Positions 7,276 to 15,515 of a stretch of 64,000 nt of DNA are shown piece by piece. Under the pieces are notes generated by a model, which ran no database searches, was not told where the DNA came from, and saw only the letters and a program-made list of their open reading frames with translations. Source of the DNA: Alicyclobacillus sp. SP_1 (GTDB lineage: Bacteria > Bacillota > Bacilli > Alicyclobacillales > Alicyclobacillaceae). How positions within the stretch are numbered: the first letter of the stretch is position 1; every line of letters begins with the position of its first letter. Location of the stretch: assembly GCF_024706985.1 (NCBI RefSeq), contig NZ_JAMCCX010000050.1, positions 62,001 to 126,000 of the forward strand, given 5' to 3'. Made by a program: the position numbers and the translations under genes.

Positions 7276-9468
7276 TTATCTGTAGACTGCAAAGCGAATT
7301 CTGCGGAGAAGAAGACTGTTTAGAACCACCGTGACAGAACTCAGAGCCATTGCTGCGCCCGCCAGCATGGGATTGAAAAATCCAAGTGCCGCAAAAGGTA
7401 TGATGATTAAATTGTAGAGTAACGACCCGAATAAATTTTGCCGAATCTTCCTCCTCATTTTCCTCGCAATGTCAAGAGACTCGAGAATTTTAGTTGGCTG
7501 ACCTTGAACAATCGTGATGTCTGCGGTCTGGAGTGCCAACTCTGCGCCCGTGCCGAGAGCGATGCCTAGATTGGCGGTTGCAAGGGCAGGCGCGTCATTG
7601 ATGCCGTCTCCAACCATCGCCACGACTCTCCCAGACTCCTTGAGGCTCTGAATGAGGCGAACTTTGTCGTCGGGTCGAGCATCGGCCGTGATGCGTTCAA
7701 TCCCGACTTGTTGTGCGATGTTTTGGCAAGCAGTCACATTGTCTCCCGAGACAAGATGAACCTCGAGTCCAAGTCGTCGCAGACGCCGAACGGCGGTCAC
7801 AGCGTCTGGTTTGAGTGGGTCGTAGAGCGCCATGACCCCCACAGGAATCCCGTCTCGTACGACCACCACAACGGACTTTCCTTCTCGTTCCCAAGCTTCT
7901 ACGTGTTCTTGAACGCCCCGTTCATAAAGCCTGTGAATGGCCCATTCCGCTCTGCCAATGCGGACCGATTTTCCGTCGACCATTCCGATGATTCCCTGGC
8001 CTACGAGGTTCTCTGCGTTTGTTTCGTTGGAAAAAGAAACGCCTTGCTGACGAGCAAATTTTTGAATGGCCACAGCAATCGGATGCGACACGGAGGATTC
8101 GAGACGGGCTGCTGCCGCGAGGACGGTGTTTGAGCGCACACCGGGAATTGTCCAGAAGTCCGTGACCGTCATTTTCCCTTCGGTAAGAGTTCCGGTTTTG
8201 TCCAAAACGACGGTATCGATATCGAGAGCGCGCTCCAAACACTCGGTGCTACGAACCAAGATGCCCCGGCTCGCCGCAACGCCAGTGCCGACCATGATGG
8301 CGGTCGGAGTCGCGAGTCCGAGTGCACAGGGACAGGCGGCGACGAGAACGCTGATGGCAGGTAGCCAAGCGTGCGGCCATCCAGCGCTGACCCCTTGGTA
8401 GAGGTACGTTGCCAGGGAAGCCAGCAGCACAGTCGGTACGAAGAGCGTACTGATGGTATCTACGAGTCGTTGTACAGAAGCTTTTGAGCCCTGAGCTTCT
8501 TCCACAATTCGAATCATTTGTGCGAGAGCAGTGGCGGATCCTGTTCGTGTAATGCGCACTAAGATGGGTGCTTCGTAGTTGAGTGCCCCGCCAATCACAG
8601 GGTCTCCGGGACGTTTCTGCAGTGGCGTGGTCTCTCCCGTCAAGAAGGATTCATCCACCGTGCTCACGCCTTCGATGATCTGTCCATCTTGAGGAACCGT
8701 TTCTCCCACCGCGACGGCGACGATATTGCCGACCGACAAGTCGTCCACGGATACCTCCCGGACGCCACTGTCGCTAAGGAGGCGCGCGGTTGGAACGGAT
8801 CTCTGTAGGAGGGCCTCCATCGCTTGGACGGAGGCCCTCTTGCCTCGTCCCTCCAAGTACTTGCCGATGACAATCGTGGTAATGACGGTGGCGGAGCAGT
8901 CGAAATAGACGTCTGTATGACCGCTGGCGAAGGACACCACACTGTAGAAGTAAGCGACGGTCGAACTGATGGTGACCAATAAATCCATAGTCGCGTGACG
9001 CGTTCGTAGAGCAGACCAAGCGCCTTGATAAAATCGTCGACCGATATAGAACTGCACCGGTGTAGCCAGTATCCACTCTGTCCATACGGGCATAAACGAG
9101 TAGCCGAACAGCATGGCAGTCATTTCGAGCACGAGCGGGATGGTTAACACCAAAGCGAGCCACAATTCGTTGGCGTCCGTGTTTTCAGTGCGGACTTGAC
9201 GAGACGAACTTGCCCGCACCGTCCGGTCGACTGGCTCTGCGCCGTATCCCGCTTTTTGCACGGCACTGAGGATGGCAGGCAGTGCGTCTGCTCCAGAAAA
9301 GTGACCCAGTACGACCGCGTGTTCCGTCGCTAGGTTGACGCGCGCGTCTTCCACTCCGGGAACCCGCTTGACGACCTTTTCAATCCGTGTGGCGCACGCC
9401 GCACAGTGCATGCCCGTGATAGCCAAGTCGATTTGTTCTAACTCGGCTTTGGCCGCAGATGATTCCAA
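7276..9468 (-). CDS. copA: Copper-exporting P1B-type ATPase
   Basis: This heavy-metal pump of about 730 residues has one N-terminal HMA domain with GMHCAACA, transmembrane helices, the CPC metal-transport motif (ACPCALGLATPTA), phosphorylation site DKTGT, HP motif (SVSHPIA) and hinge GDGINDAPAL. The CPC plus HMA combination indicates Cu(I) export. TTG 9468 is favoured as start because GGGAGGGGGG lies about 8 bases upstream on the minus strand. A longer frame to 9528 has no ribosome site. Copper-handling cupredoxin and oxidase genes lie 2-6 kb away. No CsoR-type repressor was seen. Confidence 0.93.
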   Translation of the reverse strand: MESSAAKAELEQIDLAITGMHCAACATRIEKVVKRVPGVEDARVNLATEHAVVLGHFSGADALPAILSAVQKAGYGAEPVDRTVRASSSRQVRTENTDANELWLALVLTIPLVLEMTAMLFGYSFMPVWTEWILATPVQFYIGRRFYQGAWSALRTRHATMDLLVTISSTVAYFYSVVSFASGHTDVYFDCSATVITTIVIGKYLEGRGKRASVQAMEALLQRSVPTARLLSDSGVREVSVDDLSVGNIVAVAVGETVPQDGQIIEGVSTVDESFLTGETTPLQKRPGDPVIGGALNYEAPILVRITRTGSATALAQMIRIVEEAQGSKASVQRLVDTISTLFVPTVLLASLATYLYQGVSAGWPHAWLPAISVLVAACPCALGLATPTAIMVGTGVAASRGILVRSTECLERALDIDTVVLDKTGTLTEGKMTVTDFWTIPGVRSNTVLAAAARLESSVSHPIAVAIQKFARQQGVSFSNETNAENLVGQGIIGMVDGKSVRIGRAEWAIHRLYERGVQEHVEAWEREGKSVVVVVRDGIPVGVMALYDPLKPDAVTAVRRLRRLGLEVHLVSGDNVTACQNIAQQVGIERITADARPDDKVRLIQSLKESGRVVAMVGDGINDAPALATANLGIALGTGAELALQTADITIVQGQPTKILESLDIARKMRRKIRQNLFGSLLYNLIIIPFAALGFFNPMLAGAAMALSSVTVVLNSLLLRRIRFAVYR

Positions 9469-9705
9469 GCCGTGTCCCCCCTCCCTGTCCAGTGGGCTCC
9501 GCCCAATGTGCGAGGCGGCAATGAGCAACGCTCGCGGTCACGACGGGTGGCCCACTTAGTACATGCTATTCAAGGCATGCTCGGACATGTCAGGTGGGTA
9601 GCGCTGTTCGCGTAGGTAGGTCTGCTACTATTTGGCCGCCACCGGGAAAGTATGCAGTAGAGGCACTGCGGTGATAATGACCACAGAAGAACAGGGGGGA
9701 GCTGT

Positions 9706-10077
9706 ATGCAGGATAATTTGCATCATCCGATTGTCGACTTCATTCTCAAAGCGTTTTTGGCGATTGTCGTAATAACTGGAGCAAATGCTGTGTTTACTCT
9801 GTATGACTACTACTGGGAAATTGTCGTCACGGGTATTGCCGTCGCCATCATTGGCGTGGCTTTGGATTGGCTTGTGCTGCCCCGGATGGGCAGCTTTCCT
9901 ACTCTTTACGTCGACAAGATGGCGTTTCTCATCGTCATTTCCTTACTTTCTCTGGGTCTCAGTCAGTTCACGATTGTTCCTTTTTACGTGGCGGAAGGCA
10001 TTGCCATCCTTCTTGCCGTGTTTGAGGGATGGCTCCACCGATTGGTGATGCCCGGTGGATTTCGCCTGGAGCGATAG
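9706..10077 (+). CDS. DUF2512-like four-helix membrane protein
   Basis: This 123-residue protein is almost wholly hydrophobic with four predicted membrane helices. Length and pattern resemble the YndM/DUF2512 family of Bacilli, a tentative match. A clear GGGGGAG ribosome site precedes ATG 9706. It converges with the YhcN-like gene with only 18 bases between them. No function is known. Confidence 0.7.
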   Translation: MQDNLHHPIVDFILKAFLAIVVITGANAVFTLYDYYWEIVVTGIAVAIIGVALDWLVLPRMGSFPTLYVDKMAFLIVISLLSLGLSQFTIVPFYVAEGIAILLAVFEGWLHRLVMPGGFRLER

Positions 10078-10874: not shown

Positions 10875-11462
10875 TTAGAGCACGTCGAGAATAAAAAACA
10901 GATATGTCCAAGCGACCGCATTGAATGAAAAAACCCACGTGGCTGCTTCCAGACTCCACGGATTTTCAGCGGTGATGAGACGTTTGCCGATGCGTATCCA
11001 GACGCCGAAAACGACCAGAAACGAGATACACGCGTAAAACGAGGCAACGCCTAGACACGTCAAGTCGATTTCTCCAAAGCGGCTCATCCCATCAAAACTG
11101 TGATACCAGAGGGGAAGCAACAAAGTGATGAGAGCAGAGAGACAGAGCAGCAACGTCAGTGCCAGTTGTGTTTGTGCGCGAGCGGGCTTGTGTTGGTGCA
11201 GGGACGAACGAGCCATGACGATGGGCACAATGCCTACCAGTAAGAGCAGTGCTGGCAGCAGTCCGCCCATCCAGATGTTCAAATTCGCGGGTTTTTCGCC
11301 GCCTGCAAGCATGTATCGGACATTGGTCAGCAGGTAATATGGAACACCCTGCGAGATGCAAAAGAGTACAATTCCGAAGCGGTTTTTGCGCAGTGCGCGG
11401 GCCGAGAGCCCGACGGCCGTGGCTCTCGAGTTATGGTCGAGCAGTTCGTGAGACATCTTCAT
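10875..11462 (-). CDS. Haem-copper oxidase subunit III-like protein
   Basis: This 195-residue protein has five predicted helices, like the short five-helix form of cytochrome oxidase subunit III, though motif similarity is weak. Its ATG overlaps the stop of the subunit I gene by an ATGA junction, indicating translational coupling and a shared complex. Subunit III supports the stability of the oxidase and its oxygen supply. Another start (ATG 11456) is possible. Confidence 0.72.
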   Translation of the reverse strand: MKMSHELLDHNSRATAVGLSARALRKNRFGIVLFCISQGVPYYLLTNVRYMLAGGEKPANLNIWMGGLLPALLLLVGIVPIVMARSSLHQHKPARAQTQLALTLLLCLSALITLLLPLWYHSFDGMSRFGEIDLTCLGVASFYACISFLVVFGVWIRIGKRLITAENPWSLEAATWVFSFNAVAWTYLFFILDVL

Positions 11463-13312
11463 TCGTCCTTTCGTGACGGACCGTCTGCCGCGTAGTCATA
11501 GAAACCAGTCTCGACACGAGGCAGAGGGTGAAAGTTCTTTTCACCAGGCTGTGCTTCTGTTTGCCATTCGAGTGTCTGTGCACCCCACGGATTTTTCTTT
11601 GCAGGCTTACCTCGGTTCCACATCCAGGCAATGTGCAAGAGATTGAACAAGAATCCAAGACCGAGCAAAAATGCGAACATCGACACGGAGAAGTTCATGC
11701 TTTGCAAATATACTGGATAGGCCGCAGCCCATCGATTCATGCCGCGAAGGCCCAAGAAAAACATCTGTCCAAATGCTCCGTTGAAGCCAACAAATACCCA
11801 AATGGCGCCCAGAATTGCGAGTTTTTCGTTGTACATCCTGCCCGACAGACGCGGCATCCAGTAGTATGCGACGGCTAGCCACGTGAAAATCATCGCGCCG
11901 ATAATGGTGTAGTGAAAATGCGCAATGACAAAGAATGTATCGTGGGTTTGCAGGTTGACAACCGGGTCGGCCAAAAGTACACCTGTAATGCCGCCGATGA
12001 GAAAATTGAACATGCTCATCAGTACGAGAAGGGTCGGCGCCGTTAGACGCAACTTTGCCCGCCACAGAGTCCCAAGAACCACTAGATAGGCAAATCCAGT
12101 TGGGATGGAAATCATCTCGGTGAAGAAGGAAAACGGGAGCATCTCACTATTACGCATGTTCGTAAACATGTGATGGGCCCAGACCAACCCGCTAAAAAGC
12201 ATTACGAAGACGAGGCCTAGCACTCCCCACTGGCGAGCGAAGAGCGTTTTTTGACCCATCACCGGGATAATCTCCTGCCAGAGGGCGAAGGCTGGTACCA
12301 CGATGATGTAGACCTCCGGATGGCCAAAAAGCCAAAATGCTTCCATGTAGGTGAGAGGTGTACCGACTTCGGCGAAGAGCGGAAATGGCACAATGTTGTT
12401 GAGCAAAGCTAGAACGAATGTCATTTGAATTTCTGGAAGCCAAATGATGTTGAGCAGGCTCACAGCGAGAATTCCCCAGGCATACATAGGAAGGCGGTTC
12501 CAGGTAAGGCCTGGTGCGCGTTTGAAGAGAATCGTCGCAGTTAAATTGATGGATACCATGAGCGACGAGGTGGTGAGTGCAAATACACCCAAGTAGTAAA
12601 AGACAATACCCGATGGGTCCTGTCCCGAGAGTGGGGCATATCCGCGCCAGCCCGTGTCCCAAAGACCTAAAAGGGGACTCAACACGACGGTCGCTACGCC
12701 CGCCGGAAGAAGCCATTGACTGAGCCCGGACAGGCGTGGGAAAGCGGACGAGTTGGCTCCTATCATCATCGGAATGAAGTAGTTCCCGAATCCGCCGACG
12801 AGAGCTACCGTGCCCACAGAGAACATCATGACGGTTCCGTGGATCCCGACCGTGGCCAAGTATGACCCGGGATTGCTGAACACCCACAGCTTGGCGTGCA
12901 TCAATTCAAGGCGCATGAGCATTGCCGCAAAGCCAGCGACAAAGAAGCTGCCAGCGGTCGAAAAAATGTACTGCAATCCGACCACCTTGTGATCGGTGCT
13001 GAACATGAAATACCGCCGCCAGTCGTTTGGGACGTCCCACTCGACAGGATAGCCGAAGTAAGGTCGTACAATCACTTCCCAACCGCCTACGCCGAGGAGC
13101 CATCCAATCAGCGCTGCAGCCCAGCCGATGGCCACGGAGGGACGGGTGATAAACGGATCGAACGGTTGGCGGTCTAAGATTTGACTGACCAACGTATTGA
13201 ACACGAGGAAGCCGATGGCGGCCCACAACAATCCGCGGACAAGTGGCGGCAGCATGCGCCGACGGTGTTCAGCGAGTTGACTGCTGCCTAAATCCGTGAC
13301 ATGGGAACTCAT
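11459..13312 (-). CDS. aa3-type haem-copper oxidase subunit I, atypical
   Basis: This 617-residue catalytic subunit of a terminal oxidase reduces O2 to water. Haem ligands H158 (GIHGTVMMF) and H465/H467 (AHFHY) and CuB ligands H331 (GHPEVY with the Tyr335 partner) and H380/H381 (WAHHMF) are all visible. Two extra N-terminal helices (about 25-45 and 62-82) precede the usual core. Oddly, the Asp of the D-channel entry (normally APDMAFPR) is Ser188 (ANSSAFPR), and the K-channel Lys (normally PTGIKIF) is Ala408 (PTGFAYL). The gene is the fourth of a minus-strand cluster with subunit II and two cupredoxin-fold proteins. A similar architecture serves iron or sulfur oxidation in acidophiles, which is inference here. 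Confidence 0.93.
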   Translation of the reverse strand: MSSHVTDLGSSQLAEHRRRMLPPLVRGLLWAAIGFLVFNTLVSQILDRQPFDPFITRPSVAIGWAAALIGWLLGVGGWEVIVRPYFGYPVEWDVPNDWRRYFMFSTDHKVVGLQYIFSTAGSFFVAGFAAMLMRLELMHAKLWVFSNPGSYLATVGIHGTVMMFSVGTVALVGGFGNYFIPMMIGANSSAFPRLSGLSQWLLPAGVATVVLSPLLGLWDTGWRGYAPLSGQDPSGIVFYYLGVFALTTSSLMVSINLTATILFKRAPGLTWNRLPMYAWGILAVSLLNIIWLPEIQMTFVLALLNNIVPFPLFAEVGTPLTYMEAFWLFGHPEVYIIVVPAFALWQEIIPVMGQKTLFARQWGVLGLVFVMLFSGLVWAHHMFTNMRNSEMLPFSFFTEMISIPTGFAYLVVLGTLWRAKLRLTAPTLLVLMSMFNFLIGGITGVLLADPVVNLQTHDTFFVIAHFHYTIIGAMIFTWLAVAYYWMPRLSGRMYNEKLAILGAIWVFVGFNGAFGQMFFLGLRGMNRWAAAYPVYLQSMNFSVSMFAFLLGLGFLFNLLHIAWMWNRGKPAKKNPWGAQTLEWQTEAQPGEKNFHPLPRVETGFYDYAADGPSRKDE

Positions 13313-13417: not shown

Positions 13418-14224
13418 TTACGATTGTTGCAGTTTCTTTTGGACCTGAATCCATTTGGCGAAGTCGGTTTGAGAGACCACGTGGACCGGTGCCTCCATGT
13501 ACGGATGCCCGGGTCCGCACACTTCCGCACACTGTACGCGAACCATGGGGTCCACATCGTAGGATGTGATTTTGTTGGTATGCACGTATTCGTAGCGCGT
13601 CTCACCAGGAATGATGTCCTGTTTGAGGCCAAACGCCGGCACCCAGAAGTCGTGGATGACTCCGATATAAGGGGCGTACGTGTGATACGGGTCATAGGAG
13701 CGCAGGACAAAGCGCACATTTCGGTTCACCGGTAAATAGAGCGTGCTGTTTCCATTGGTGTCTTGTGCGTACTGAATTCCGTATTGTGGGTAGCTGAAAA
13801 TCCACTCCCACTGGCGGGCGGTGACATTGACAACGAGATCGTTTCGGTTGAAGCGGGCTTCTTCGCTGTTGAACATCTGCTCCACAGCCGAGGCCGATGG
13901 ATGTACGAAGAAGAGAATGTTCAAGGCGATGCTGAGAATCACCCAACTGCCGATGAACAGCTTGTTGTCACGAAACTGGTGTCGAGACAGGATGGGCTTG
14001 TTCGAGCGAGATCGAAACCGGATGGCATTGTAGACGAGTAGCACGATGACGAAAGAGATGACCGGGACGAGTACGGTCAAGATAAAAGCGACCGCCTTTT
14101 CGCCAGCTATGGCCTGTGCACTCGCTGTGTAGTAATAGAGACCCAGGTGCTCCAAGGCGTGCAGTCCCCATTCTCCGAGGAGGGAGACAATCACCCAGAT
14201 AATTGTAAACCAGAGGAGATCCAT
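13418..14224 (-). CDS. Cytochrome oxidase subunit II with CuA site
   Basis: This 268-residue subunit receives electrons from a donor and passes them to subunit I. Three N-terminal hydrophobic segments (about 5-20, 45-65, 90-108) precede a periplasmic-side cupredoxin domain. The binuclear CuA ligands are complete: H191 (VIHDFWVP), C232, E234, C236, H240 and M243 (in QCAEVCGPGHPYM). ATG 14224 is chosen over a longer frame to 14320 because it starts 5 bases after the upstream cupredoxin stop. Having three helices rather than two is unusual. Confidence 0.92.
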   Translation of the reverse strand: MDLLWFTIIWVIVSLLGEWGLHALEHLGLYYYTASAQAIAGEKAVAFILTVLVPVISFVIVLLVYNAIRFRSRSNKPILSRHQFRDNKLFIGSWVILSIALNILFFVHPSASAVEQMFNSEEARFNRNDLVVNVTARQWEWIFSYPQYGIQYAQDTNGNSTLYLPVNRNVRFVLRSYDPYHTYAPYIGVIHDFWVPAFGLKQDIIPGETRYEYVHTNKITSYDVDPMVRVQCAEVCGPGHPYMEAPVHVVSQTDFAKWIQVQKKLQQS

Positions 14225-14229
14225 GTTCT

Positions 14230-14871
14230 TTACACCTGCTTCTGTGGGAGAATGGTGATTGTTCCACGCATGCCGTCCAAATAATGGATGTATTGCTGGA
14301 CGAAGCAACCGTAATACCATTTTCCGGGCTTGTTCGGAACTGTGAACGTGATGTCAATTCCACCTTTGGGTTGAATGGTAGGACTGAAGTCTCCGCCCGT
14401 CTCGATGTTTGGTTTTGGTCCAATATAAGTTGGGATGGCTTTGTTGACGACTAAGTTATCCACGTGATTGGCGTGGCTGAAGGTGACGTGGACGCCGTCC
14501 CAAAAATCTTCCTTGAATTGCGTGGCGATCGGACCGAACGTGCTCGGTGTGTTGTCAAATCCGCGCCCAATCACCATTTCATGCCAATGTGTATCGCTCC
14601 GATTGCGAAGCTGAATGGTGACGCGGTCCCCCACGCGCCACGTGATGTGGCGAGGTTCGTAGTCGTAATCGAATTGGTAAATCCGGGTGATGGGTTCGTC
14701 AAGCTTGCGTCCGAAGACCGAGGCGGCAACTTCAGACACGGGCTTTTGCCAGAATAGAGCAAATAACCCGACAATAAAGGCGCATCCAAAGACGATGAAG
14801 AAGGTGCTTGCGCGCCATCTTGAATCGCGTTTGTTCATCCGCCGGTGCGATGAGGCAGAATGGTCTTGCAT
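14230..14871 (-). CDS. Membrane-anchored type-1 copper cupredoxin
   Basis: This 213-residue protein has one N-terminal membrane anchor (about 21-42) and an extracytoplasmic cupredoxin domain. Plausible blue-copper ligands are H97 (or H95, in THWHEMV), C189, H196 and M201 in a C-x6-H-x4-M loop ending GMRGTITIL, similar in shape to the loop of multicopper oxidases and nitrite reductases. Start ATG 14871 has GGAGG 8 bases upstream; an earlier frame start at 14913 lacks one. It is the likely electron donor to CuA of the next gene. The exact family is not recognised. Confidence 0.82.
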   Translation of the reverse strand: MQDHSASSHRRMNKRDSRWRASTFFIVFGCAFIVGLFALFWQKPVSEVAASVFGRKLDEPITRIYQFDYDYEPRHITWRVGDRVTIQLRNRSDTHWHEMVIGRGFDNTPSTFGPIATQFKEDFWDGVHVTFSHANHVDNLVVNKAIPTYIGPKPNIETGGDFSPTIQPKGGIDITFTVPNKPGKWYYGCFVQQYIHYLDGMRGTITILPQKQV

Positions 14872-14972
14872 CGAGGAAACCTCCAGCGTCGTGGTGAGTA
14901 GACGGATGTACATCCAGTCAGTTGCAAAGATGAGTCTCGGAAATCCGTCACAGACGTTTCCGGGAGCATGGT

Positions 14973-15515
14973 TTAAACGCTTTTGACTTCGGCTTTGCCG
15001 CTTTGAGTCACGTTAAATTGTGCCCAGAGGCCCAGCGGAGTGTGAGTTGGATGGTGCGATGGGTAGCGGTAAAGCAGACTTTCCAGACGATAGTGACCGA
15101 CTTTGTTCGCAGTAAAAGTCAATTTGGCAGAGTTTCCCGGCATGATTCCGGCGGTTGGACTATTGACAAGATTTGCAATGGCATCTCCGGAGCCTGGAAA
15201 AGCGACTTGCTGTTCCTTTGTGTAGACACCACTTGTGAACGGAATTCCTCCGTCATTTGTGATGTGAAGAATGACCTTGGACCCCACTGGTACTGAGATA
15301 AGTAGGTGCCCGTTGGCAAAGCCATTGTAGTTCGCGTCTAGATTTTCGCTCTTGTGGCCCATGCTTAAAAAGAGTTGGACGGTGTTCGCGGATGGATTGG
15401 CATCCATGATGGACGCGAGAGCTTGTTCCGCTGGACGTCCGCACGCGGTGAGCAACAGGGGAACGCCAACTAAGAGTGCTGCGACTTTCAGTTTTTTCCG
15501 CGGTCTCGTTTGCAA
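14973..15515 (-). CDS. Sulfocyanin-like lipoprotein lacking copper ligands
   Basis: This 180-residue protein has a signal peptide and lipobox LTAC (C25). The NGFANGHLLISVPVGSKV stretch followed by the NDGG loop matches sulfocyanin, the blue copper protein of acidophiles. The expected ligands are absent: the usual PHS histidine is F93 (IPFTSG), the C-terminal Cys is replaced (LESLLYR, about 144-150), and the Met region reads PLGLW. The only cysteine is the lipidated one. The start is a TTG with GAGGTG close upstream. It is the first gene of the oxidase cluster and may have a structural or assembly role rather than electron transfer. Confidence 0.75.
   Translation of the reverse strand: MQTRPRKKLKVAALLVGVPLLLTACGRPAEQALASIMDANPSANTVQLFLSMGHKSENLDANYNGFANGHLLISVPVGSKVILHITNDGGIPFTSGVYTKEQQVAFPGSGDAIANLVNSPTAGIMPGNSAKLTFTANKVGHYRLESLLYRYPSHHPTHTPLGLWAQFNVTQSGKAEVKSV

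Follow-up and report, generated by a model that had tools for sequence, protein, structure and literature searches.

The window analysed here, a 64,000-nucleotide stretch of DNA from Alicyclobacillus sp. SP_1, contains a haem-copper oxidase operon on its minus strand. The genes, all on that strand, are transcribed in the order sulfocyanin-like protein, AcoP-like cupredoxin, CoxB, CoxA and a 195-aa membrane protein (CoxC). The first gene (14973..15515) encodes a sulfocyanin-like blue copper protein, which is likely to be an electron carrier. It matches PF06525 with 28.8 bits (cut-off 21) and TIGR03094 with 28.6 bits, the latter being under the cut-off. The AcoP-like cupredoxin (14230..14913) matches PDB 7z3b with an E value of 2e-19, and its Cys-His-Met ligand loop is aligned. 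In Acidithiobacillus ferrooxidans, AcoP is the copper protein that attaches to cytochrome c oxidase (PMC4059628). CoxB, which is subunit II (13418..14320), keeps the CuA ligands (H, C-x-E-x-C-x3-H-x2-M), and its true start is likely to be an internal ATG near 14224. CoxA, or COX1, is subunit I of an A-family haem-copper oxidase (11459..13312); its open reading frame of 617 aa runs from 13312 to 11459 and matches PF00115 with an E value of 5e-105. CoxC is a divergent subunit III (10875..11462) that overlaps the coxA stop by 4 bp, with an hhalign probability of 98.5% to canonical COX3. PF00510 is matched by 18 of 21 CoxC homologues at E values up to 1, the best being 3e-25.

The order AcoP-CoxB-CoxA-CoxC is repeated in nearly all relatives of which the flanking DNA was compared. 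The sulfocyanin-like gene heads the operon in the Alicyclobacillales relatives and is mostly missing from this place in Sulfobacillus, in whose oxidase clusters AcoP homologues were known earlier (PMC4059628). The system resembles the CoxBACD and AcoP system of A. ferrooxidans (PMC4059628) in having an AcoP gene in the oxidase cluster, directly upstream of coxB-coxA-coxC, as well as a CuA oxidase and a link with iron oxidation in acidophiles. This likeness is one of gene content, and the present host differs in being a member of the Bacillota with a sulfocyanin-like carrier. Two further genes lie close to the operon. A 123-aa membrane protein that matches no Pfam or NCBIfam family (9706-10077, plus strand) is found beside the operon, on the opposite strand, in many relatives with 61-67% identity. 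A copper-exporting P-type ATPase is encoded at 7276-9528 (minus strand), and homologues with 31-34% identity lie near several related operons.

CoxA scored 441 bits with the CtaD model TIGR02891, which is under the model's own cut-off, and 66 bits with the SoxB model, pointing to the A type rather than to B or C. The structures that it matched are also A-type oxidases. The AF2 model of CoxA (mean pLDDT 72, pTM 0.79) superposes on R. sphaeroides aa3 with a Z score of 37.8 and an rmsd of 3.2 over 477 aligned residues. Helices 23-46 and 57-85 of this model precede the core, in agreement with the two extra N-terminal helices described in the first-pass annotation, and the pre-core region has at least 92 residues in CoxA relatives, compared with 53-55 in two canonical oxidases. 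The haem and copper ligands are all in place, as that annotation had also stated: H158, H331, H380, H381, H465, H467, E333 and Y335 are present and invariant among the members of the group defined below. The fold, the six His ligands, Glu286, Tyr288 and CuA are common to the CoxA system and the A1-type aa3 oxidases of R. sphaeroides, P. denitrificans and bovine mitochondria. However, D132, N139, K362, S299 and E101 of subunit II are all replaced here, and two helices are added. Because the Asp has become Ser188 and the Asn gate Ser195, though N177 and N256 are kept, CoxA is, as judged from its residues, an A-type oxidase by descent, yet not a canonical A1 enzyme.

The Lys of the K-channel and the Asp of the D-channel are essential in model oxidases. 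The D-motif of CoxA is MMIGANSSAFPRLSGL, and the stretch around it, GFGNYFIPMMIGANSSAFPRLSGL, aligns to the model oxidases without gaps. G185, F191, P192 and N177 are in register with the canonical motif, and Ser188 (codon 12749..12751) stands at the position of R. sphaeroides D132, the D-channel entry. The K-motif is SIPTGFAYL, compared with SVPTGVKFF in model oxidases, which places Ala408 (codon 12089..12091) at the site of the K-channel Lys, K362 in R. sphaeroides. Both replacements had been read from the sequence beforehand and are borne out. An Asp or Glu moved to a nearby position of the D entrance, which would have spoken for a functional substitute, was sought within residues 174-200 of CoxA, and none is there; Glu188 is confined to L080, L121 and some of the Sulfobacillus-type paralogues. 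The annotation had further claimed that the Asn residues after FPR are lost. This is right for the first, the Asn gate (R. sphaeroides N139), which is Ser195 in CoxA (codon 12728..12730); the second does not count as a loss, as most canonical oxidases have Ala or Met there. In CoxB, the K-channel entry Glu of subunit II (R. sphaeroides E101) is replaced by Ile123, in the numbering of the reading frame as called.

COX1-type genes number three in the host genome (3.4 Mb, 105 contigs), namely CoxA, a second gene of the same kind (L002) and a canonical oxidase with both Lys and Asp (L001). The L002 operon (G000:C13:22062-26342) encodes a CoxA that is 62% identical, with Thr at the D position and Ala at the K position; an AcoP-like protein is encoded within this operon too, and close by lies a gene for a sulfocyanin-like protein. 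Relatives of CoxA with 59-81% identity are found in Ferroacidibacillus organovorans, Sulfoacidibacillus thermotolerans, Alicyclobacillus ferrooxydans, A. mengziensis, A. tolerans, Sulfobacillus thermotolerans, S. benefaciens and MAGs. A Deinococci MAG and Neobacillus sp. PS3-12 stand at 47-49% identity, and genome searches added further relatives of this distant kind. A third, more distant paralogue (L121, 51%; G049:C9:214000-216500) occurs in a genome of the Ferroacidibacillus family and has Glu in place of the Asp, Gly as its gate residue and Met instead of the Lys; CoxB was not found beside it within the short stretch of DNA there. L068, a candidate relative from Proteobacteria with the two extra helices, turned out to be an ordinary oxidase bearing Lys and Asp. 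CoxA is closest to Ferroacidibacillus, which belongs to another family (80-81%), and is 74% identical to Alicyclobacillus of its own family, and a genome of the same genus (G001) is without the operon. It is therefore possible that the operon was acquired through gene transfer.

The group was defined as K-less oxidases with Glu399, a criterion by which L127 and L132, both K-less but unrelated, were the only sequences left out. Its 58 non-redundant members, chiefly from acidophilic iron-oxidising Alicyclobacillales and Sulfobacillus, were aligned with 17 Lys-bearing oxidases; the alignment and the tree are without Acidithiobacillus CoxA. Position 408 is A, S, G or hydrophobic in all 58 members and Lys in all 17 Lys-bearing oxidases. 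The entry Glu of subunit II is missing from all 51 distinct aligned CoxB of the K-less kind and is present in the eight others. The positions of R. sphaeroides S365 and S299 are also altered in the K-less clade. At position 188, Asp is found in six of the 58 members (L060, L061, L074-L077), all of them K-less, and the other 52 have S, E, T, G, K, R, N or H. Since the same losses are fixed in relatives across dozens of genomes, the observation is far beyond chance, and conservation across 58 sequences rules out sequencing error or decay as its source.

In a maximum-likelihood tree of 55 sequences, from which the channel columns had been removed, the K-less clade and the Asp-less clade each have support of 100/100. 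On this tree the Asp position changes once and the Lys position twice, the second time in the L127/L132 pair. With the Lys-bearing oxidases as root, the sequences place the loss of the K route first, in an ancestor that bore the D-channel, and a single later event, basal to the iron-oxidiser clade, removed the Asp. If the root is instead put among the K-less sequences, as in the tree of Degli Esposti et al., the K-less state becomes the older one and the single Asp change stays where it is. L127, with L136, is from a plasmid of Dinoroseobacter shibae, and L132, with L137, from a plasmid of Paraburkholderia sp. PGU19; this independent COX1 pair keeps the D-channel Asp. It has Gln or Ala at the K-channel Lys, with a subunit II that is without the entry Glu of the E-x-x-W motif. 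In L132, the motif HPWVY replaces the D-channel Glu by Trp.

The first-pass annotation had suggested that an acidophile with a large natural pH gradient may dispense with canonical proton entry or rebuild it. The absence of the canonical entry residues of both channels stands. Acidophily as the cause of the K-channel loss does not, because this loss predates the iron-oxidiser clade and is also present in D-intact relatives, among them Neobacillus sp. PS3-12 and the Deinococci MAG; the Asp-bearing K-less relatives and the tree both contradict it. The Asp-less clade is a single event, and its association with iron oxidation therefore counts as one observation.

Some of these features have been described before. 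Degli Esposti et al. (2021; PMC8239418) reported a basal group of COX1 with two extra N-terminal helices that includes iron oxidisers, listed iron-oxidising Alicyclobacilli in the table of haem A synthases and marked K- and D-channel variants on archaeal oxidases. CoxA resembles this '2TM' clade in the two helices, in its position basal to the Lys-bearing COX1 and in its iron-oxidising hosts, so that the clade and the channel variants as such are previously known. The order of the losses, the loss of the subunit II Glu, the change of Asn139 to Ser and the invariant E399 and E294 were not found in the main text of that paper, whose supplement may hold some of them.

The upper part of the D-channel is kept in the Asp-less clade, where the equivalents of N121, S200, S201 (S or T), N207 and E286 are retained. 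Position 188 is the 20th most variable of the 502 core columns of this clade, in which E333, N177, N256 and S249 are invariant. Ten Asp-less members have Glu at 188, five have Lys and two have Arg; a position as variable as this, open even to Lys and Arg, does not require an acid. The N139 position (195) is Ser in 51 of the 52 Asp-less members, and the six K-less members with Asp and the 17 Lys-bearing oxidases invariably have Asn there. The position of R. sphaeroides G204, which lines the D-channel, is Val in 50 of the 52, and Gly, Thr or Ser elsewhere. Glu294 in helix V (codon 12431..12433) is invariant only in the Asp-less clade (52/52), the six Asp-bearing K-less members having Val or Phe.

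According to a review, the mutations N98S, N98T and N98D (in bovine numbering), which affect the residue equivalent to N139 of R. sphaeroides, keep O2 reduction and lose pumping (PMC12901375). K319M blocks the reduction of haem a3, and mutants of the D-channel block later steps (PMC12901375). Taken with the published effect of N98S, the change to Ser on the branch of Asp loss indicates at the sequence level that the iron-oxidiser enzymes carry a natural version of the decoupling change, in a background that is missing the usual channel residues.

A second set of polar residues distinguishes the whole K-less clade. Glu399 (codon 12116..12118), Ser402, Asn436, Asp449 and Thr469 are present in 58 of 58 members and Ser433 in 56 of 58, the clade having been selected on Glu399. 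The 17 Lys-bearing oxidases have mostly other, largely nonpolar residues at the same positions, and Glu399 is missing from all of them. By bovine numbering, Asn436 (bovine L347) and Thr469 (bovine V380) would lie at equal depth, a turn below the pair formed by the proximal His ligand of haem a3 and its helix IX partner, and Glu399 and Ser402 would lie on the neighbouring helix VIII. With this placement, a cluster of polar residues proximal to haem a3 is plausible. Glu399 is unsupported as a general substitute for the Lys, since the independent K-less pair L127/L132 is without Glu at 399.

We favour, with a probability of about 50%, the reading that CoxA is a charge-separating, probably non-pumping terminal oxidase for a high-potential electron source, namely iron; from sequence comparison we infer both its pumping state and its proton route. 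Ferrous iron would be the source of electrons, which would pass from sulfocyanin and the AcoP-like cupredoxin to CuA of CoxB, then to haem a and to the haem-copper centre of CoxA. In its canonical form the K route is missing along its whole length, and the D-channel is without the Asp antenna and has Ser as its gate residue. The cytoplasm would supply the substrate protons for water by way of an Asp-free entrance and the upper D-channel that is left, and the clade-specific buried polar cluster (E399, S402, S433, N436 and T469) probably assists this route. Without pumping, energy would be stored only by protons taken up from the inside and electrons from the outside, at one charge per electron. 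This may be all that ferrous iron oxidation at low pH can pay for. The textbook potentials of the O2/water couple at pH 2 (1.11 V) and of iron (0.77 V) leave about 0.34 V per electron, and the proton-motive force is about 0.2-0.25 V. One charge per electron is therefore affordable and two are not, which supports the absence of pumping. A role for CoxA in an iron-oxidation chain is probable, judging by hosts like Ferroacidibacillus organovorans and Alicyclobacillus ferrooxydans, and is assumed for the present organism; the operon with AcoP, and often a sulfocyanin-like protein, in iron-oxidising species counts for it.

Several points speak against a non-pumping enzyme. Strict conservation extends over the E286 equivalent and much of the upper D-channel, and the route may still do regulated work. 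The ten Asp-less members with Glu188 are another such point. No canonical D-channel is needed for pumping in B- and C-family oxidases. The effect of N139S, moreover, is known from enzymes that retain Asp132 and would apply here by analogy. No measured proton stoichiometry for any iron-oxidiser oxidase was found in the literature. The first-pass annotation had offered an alternative path or a lack of pumping. Its second option has gained a specific argument in the decoupling nature of N139S and the little energy available from iron, and sequence cannot choose between the two.

The main rival, which we regard as possible but unlikely, is that pumping continues through a rebuilt channel. Here, the proximal cluster between helices VIII, IX and X, joined by E294 in the Asp-less clade, would form the path. 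The fixation of E399, S402, N436 and T469 in the K-less clade, the rise of E294 on the branch of Asp loss and the inferred depth of N436 and T469 below the proximal His pair speak for such a channel, and B- and C-family oxidases do pump via one path. However, the K-less members represent one event, so that this association too is a single observation, and the independent loss of the K route in L127/L132 took place without Glu at 399. It is rather improbable that Glu399, Ser402, Asn436 and Thr469, with Glu294 in the iron oxidisers, make up a third proton path, proximal to haem a3, that replaces both the K and D entrances in a working and possibly pumping A-family oxidase.

Distinctly improbable is a single modified K-type route, as in the B and C families, in which T405, Y335 and a polar residue at 346 carry all protons. 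The T359 and Y288 equivalents are invariant, and 39 of the 52 Asp-less members have a polar residue, Asn or Gln, at position 346. In the B and C families, Thr312 and Gly286 stand where the Lys would be (PMC12901375), in a path that still conducts. Like CoxA, the ba3 and cbb3 oxidases have no working D-channel and no Lys at the K362 position, but they belong to other families by sequence and keep a conducting K-type path, whereas CoxA keeps the A1 Glu. Against this route, every aligned CoxB of the clade has lost its entry Glu, the S365 position is mostly Val or Ala, and the six K-less relatives with Asp all have Leu at 346.

Both inside entry motifs are lost and protons are abundant outside, so the substrate protons could be drawn from the acidic exterior in an electroneutral reaction. 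This is very unlikely: iron oxidation would then yield no proton-motive force and would not remove the protons that enter with ATP synthesis, and the upper, inside-facing D-channel residues remain invariant. A decaying or non-catalytic homologue, suggested by the loss of residues essential in model enzymes, is hardly conceivable given the invariant metal ligands and active-site Tyr, the intact operon, several paralogues per genome and strong conservation elsewhere.

On the favoured reading of CoxA as a charge-separating enzyme, the iron oxidisers may possess a natural non-pumping version of the mitochondrial-type oxidase. Two residues that are essential in model enzymes have been removed by nature from an oxidase that still looks to be working. 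The relatives form a natural series, with both channels, with the D-channel only and with neither entrance, so that an old debate, over the channel residues needed for chemistry and those needed for pumping, can be put to the test in living enzymes. If the reading is true, natural decoupling in iron oxidisers would link the loss of the pump to the small energy yield of iron.
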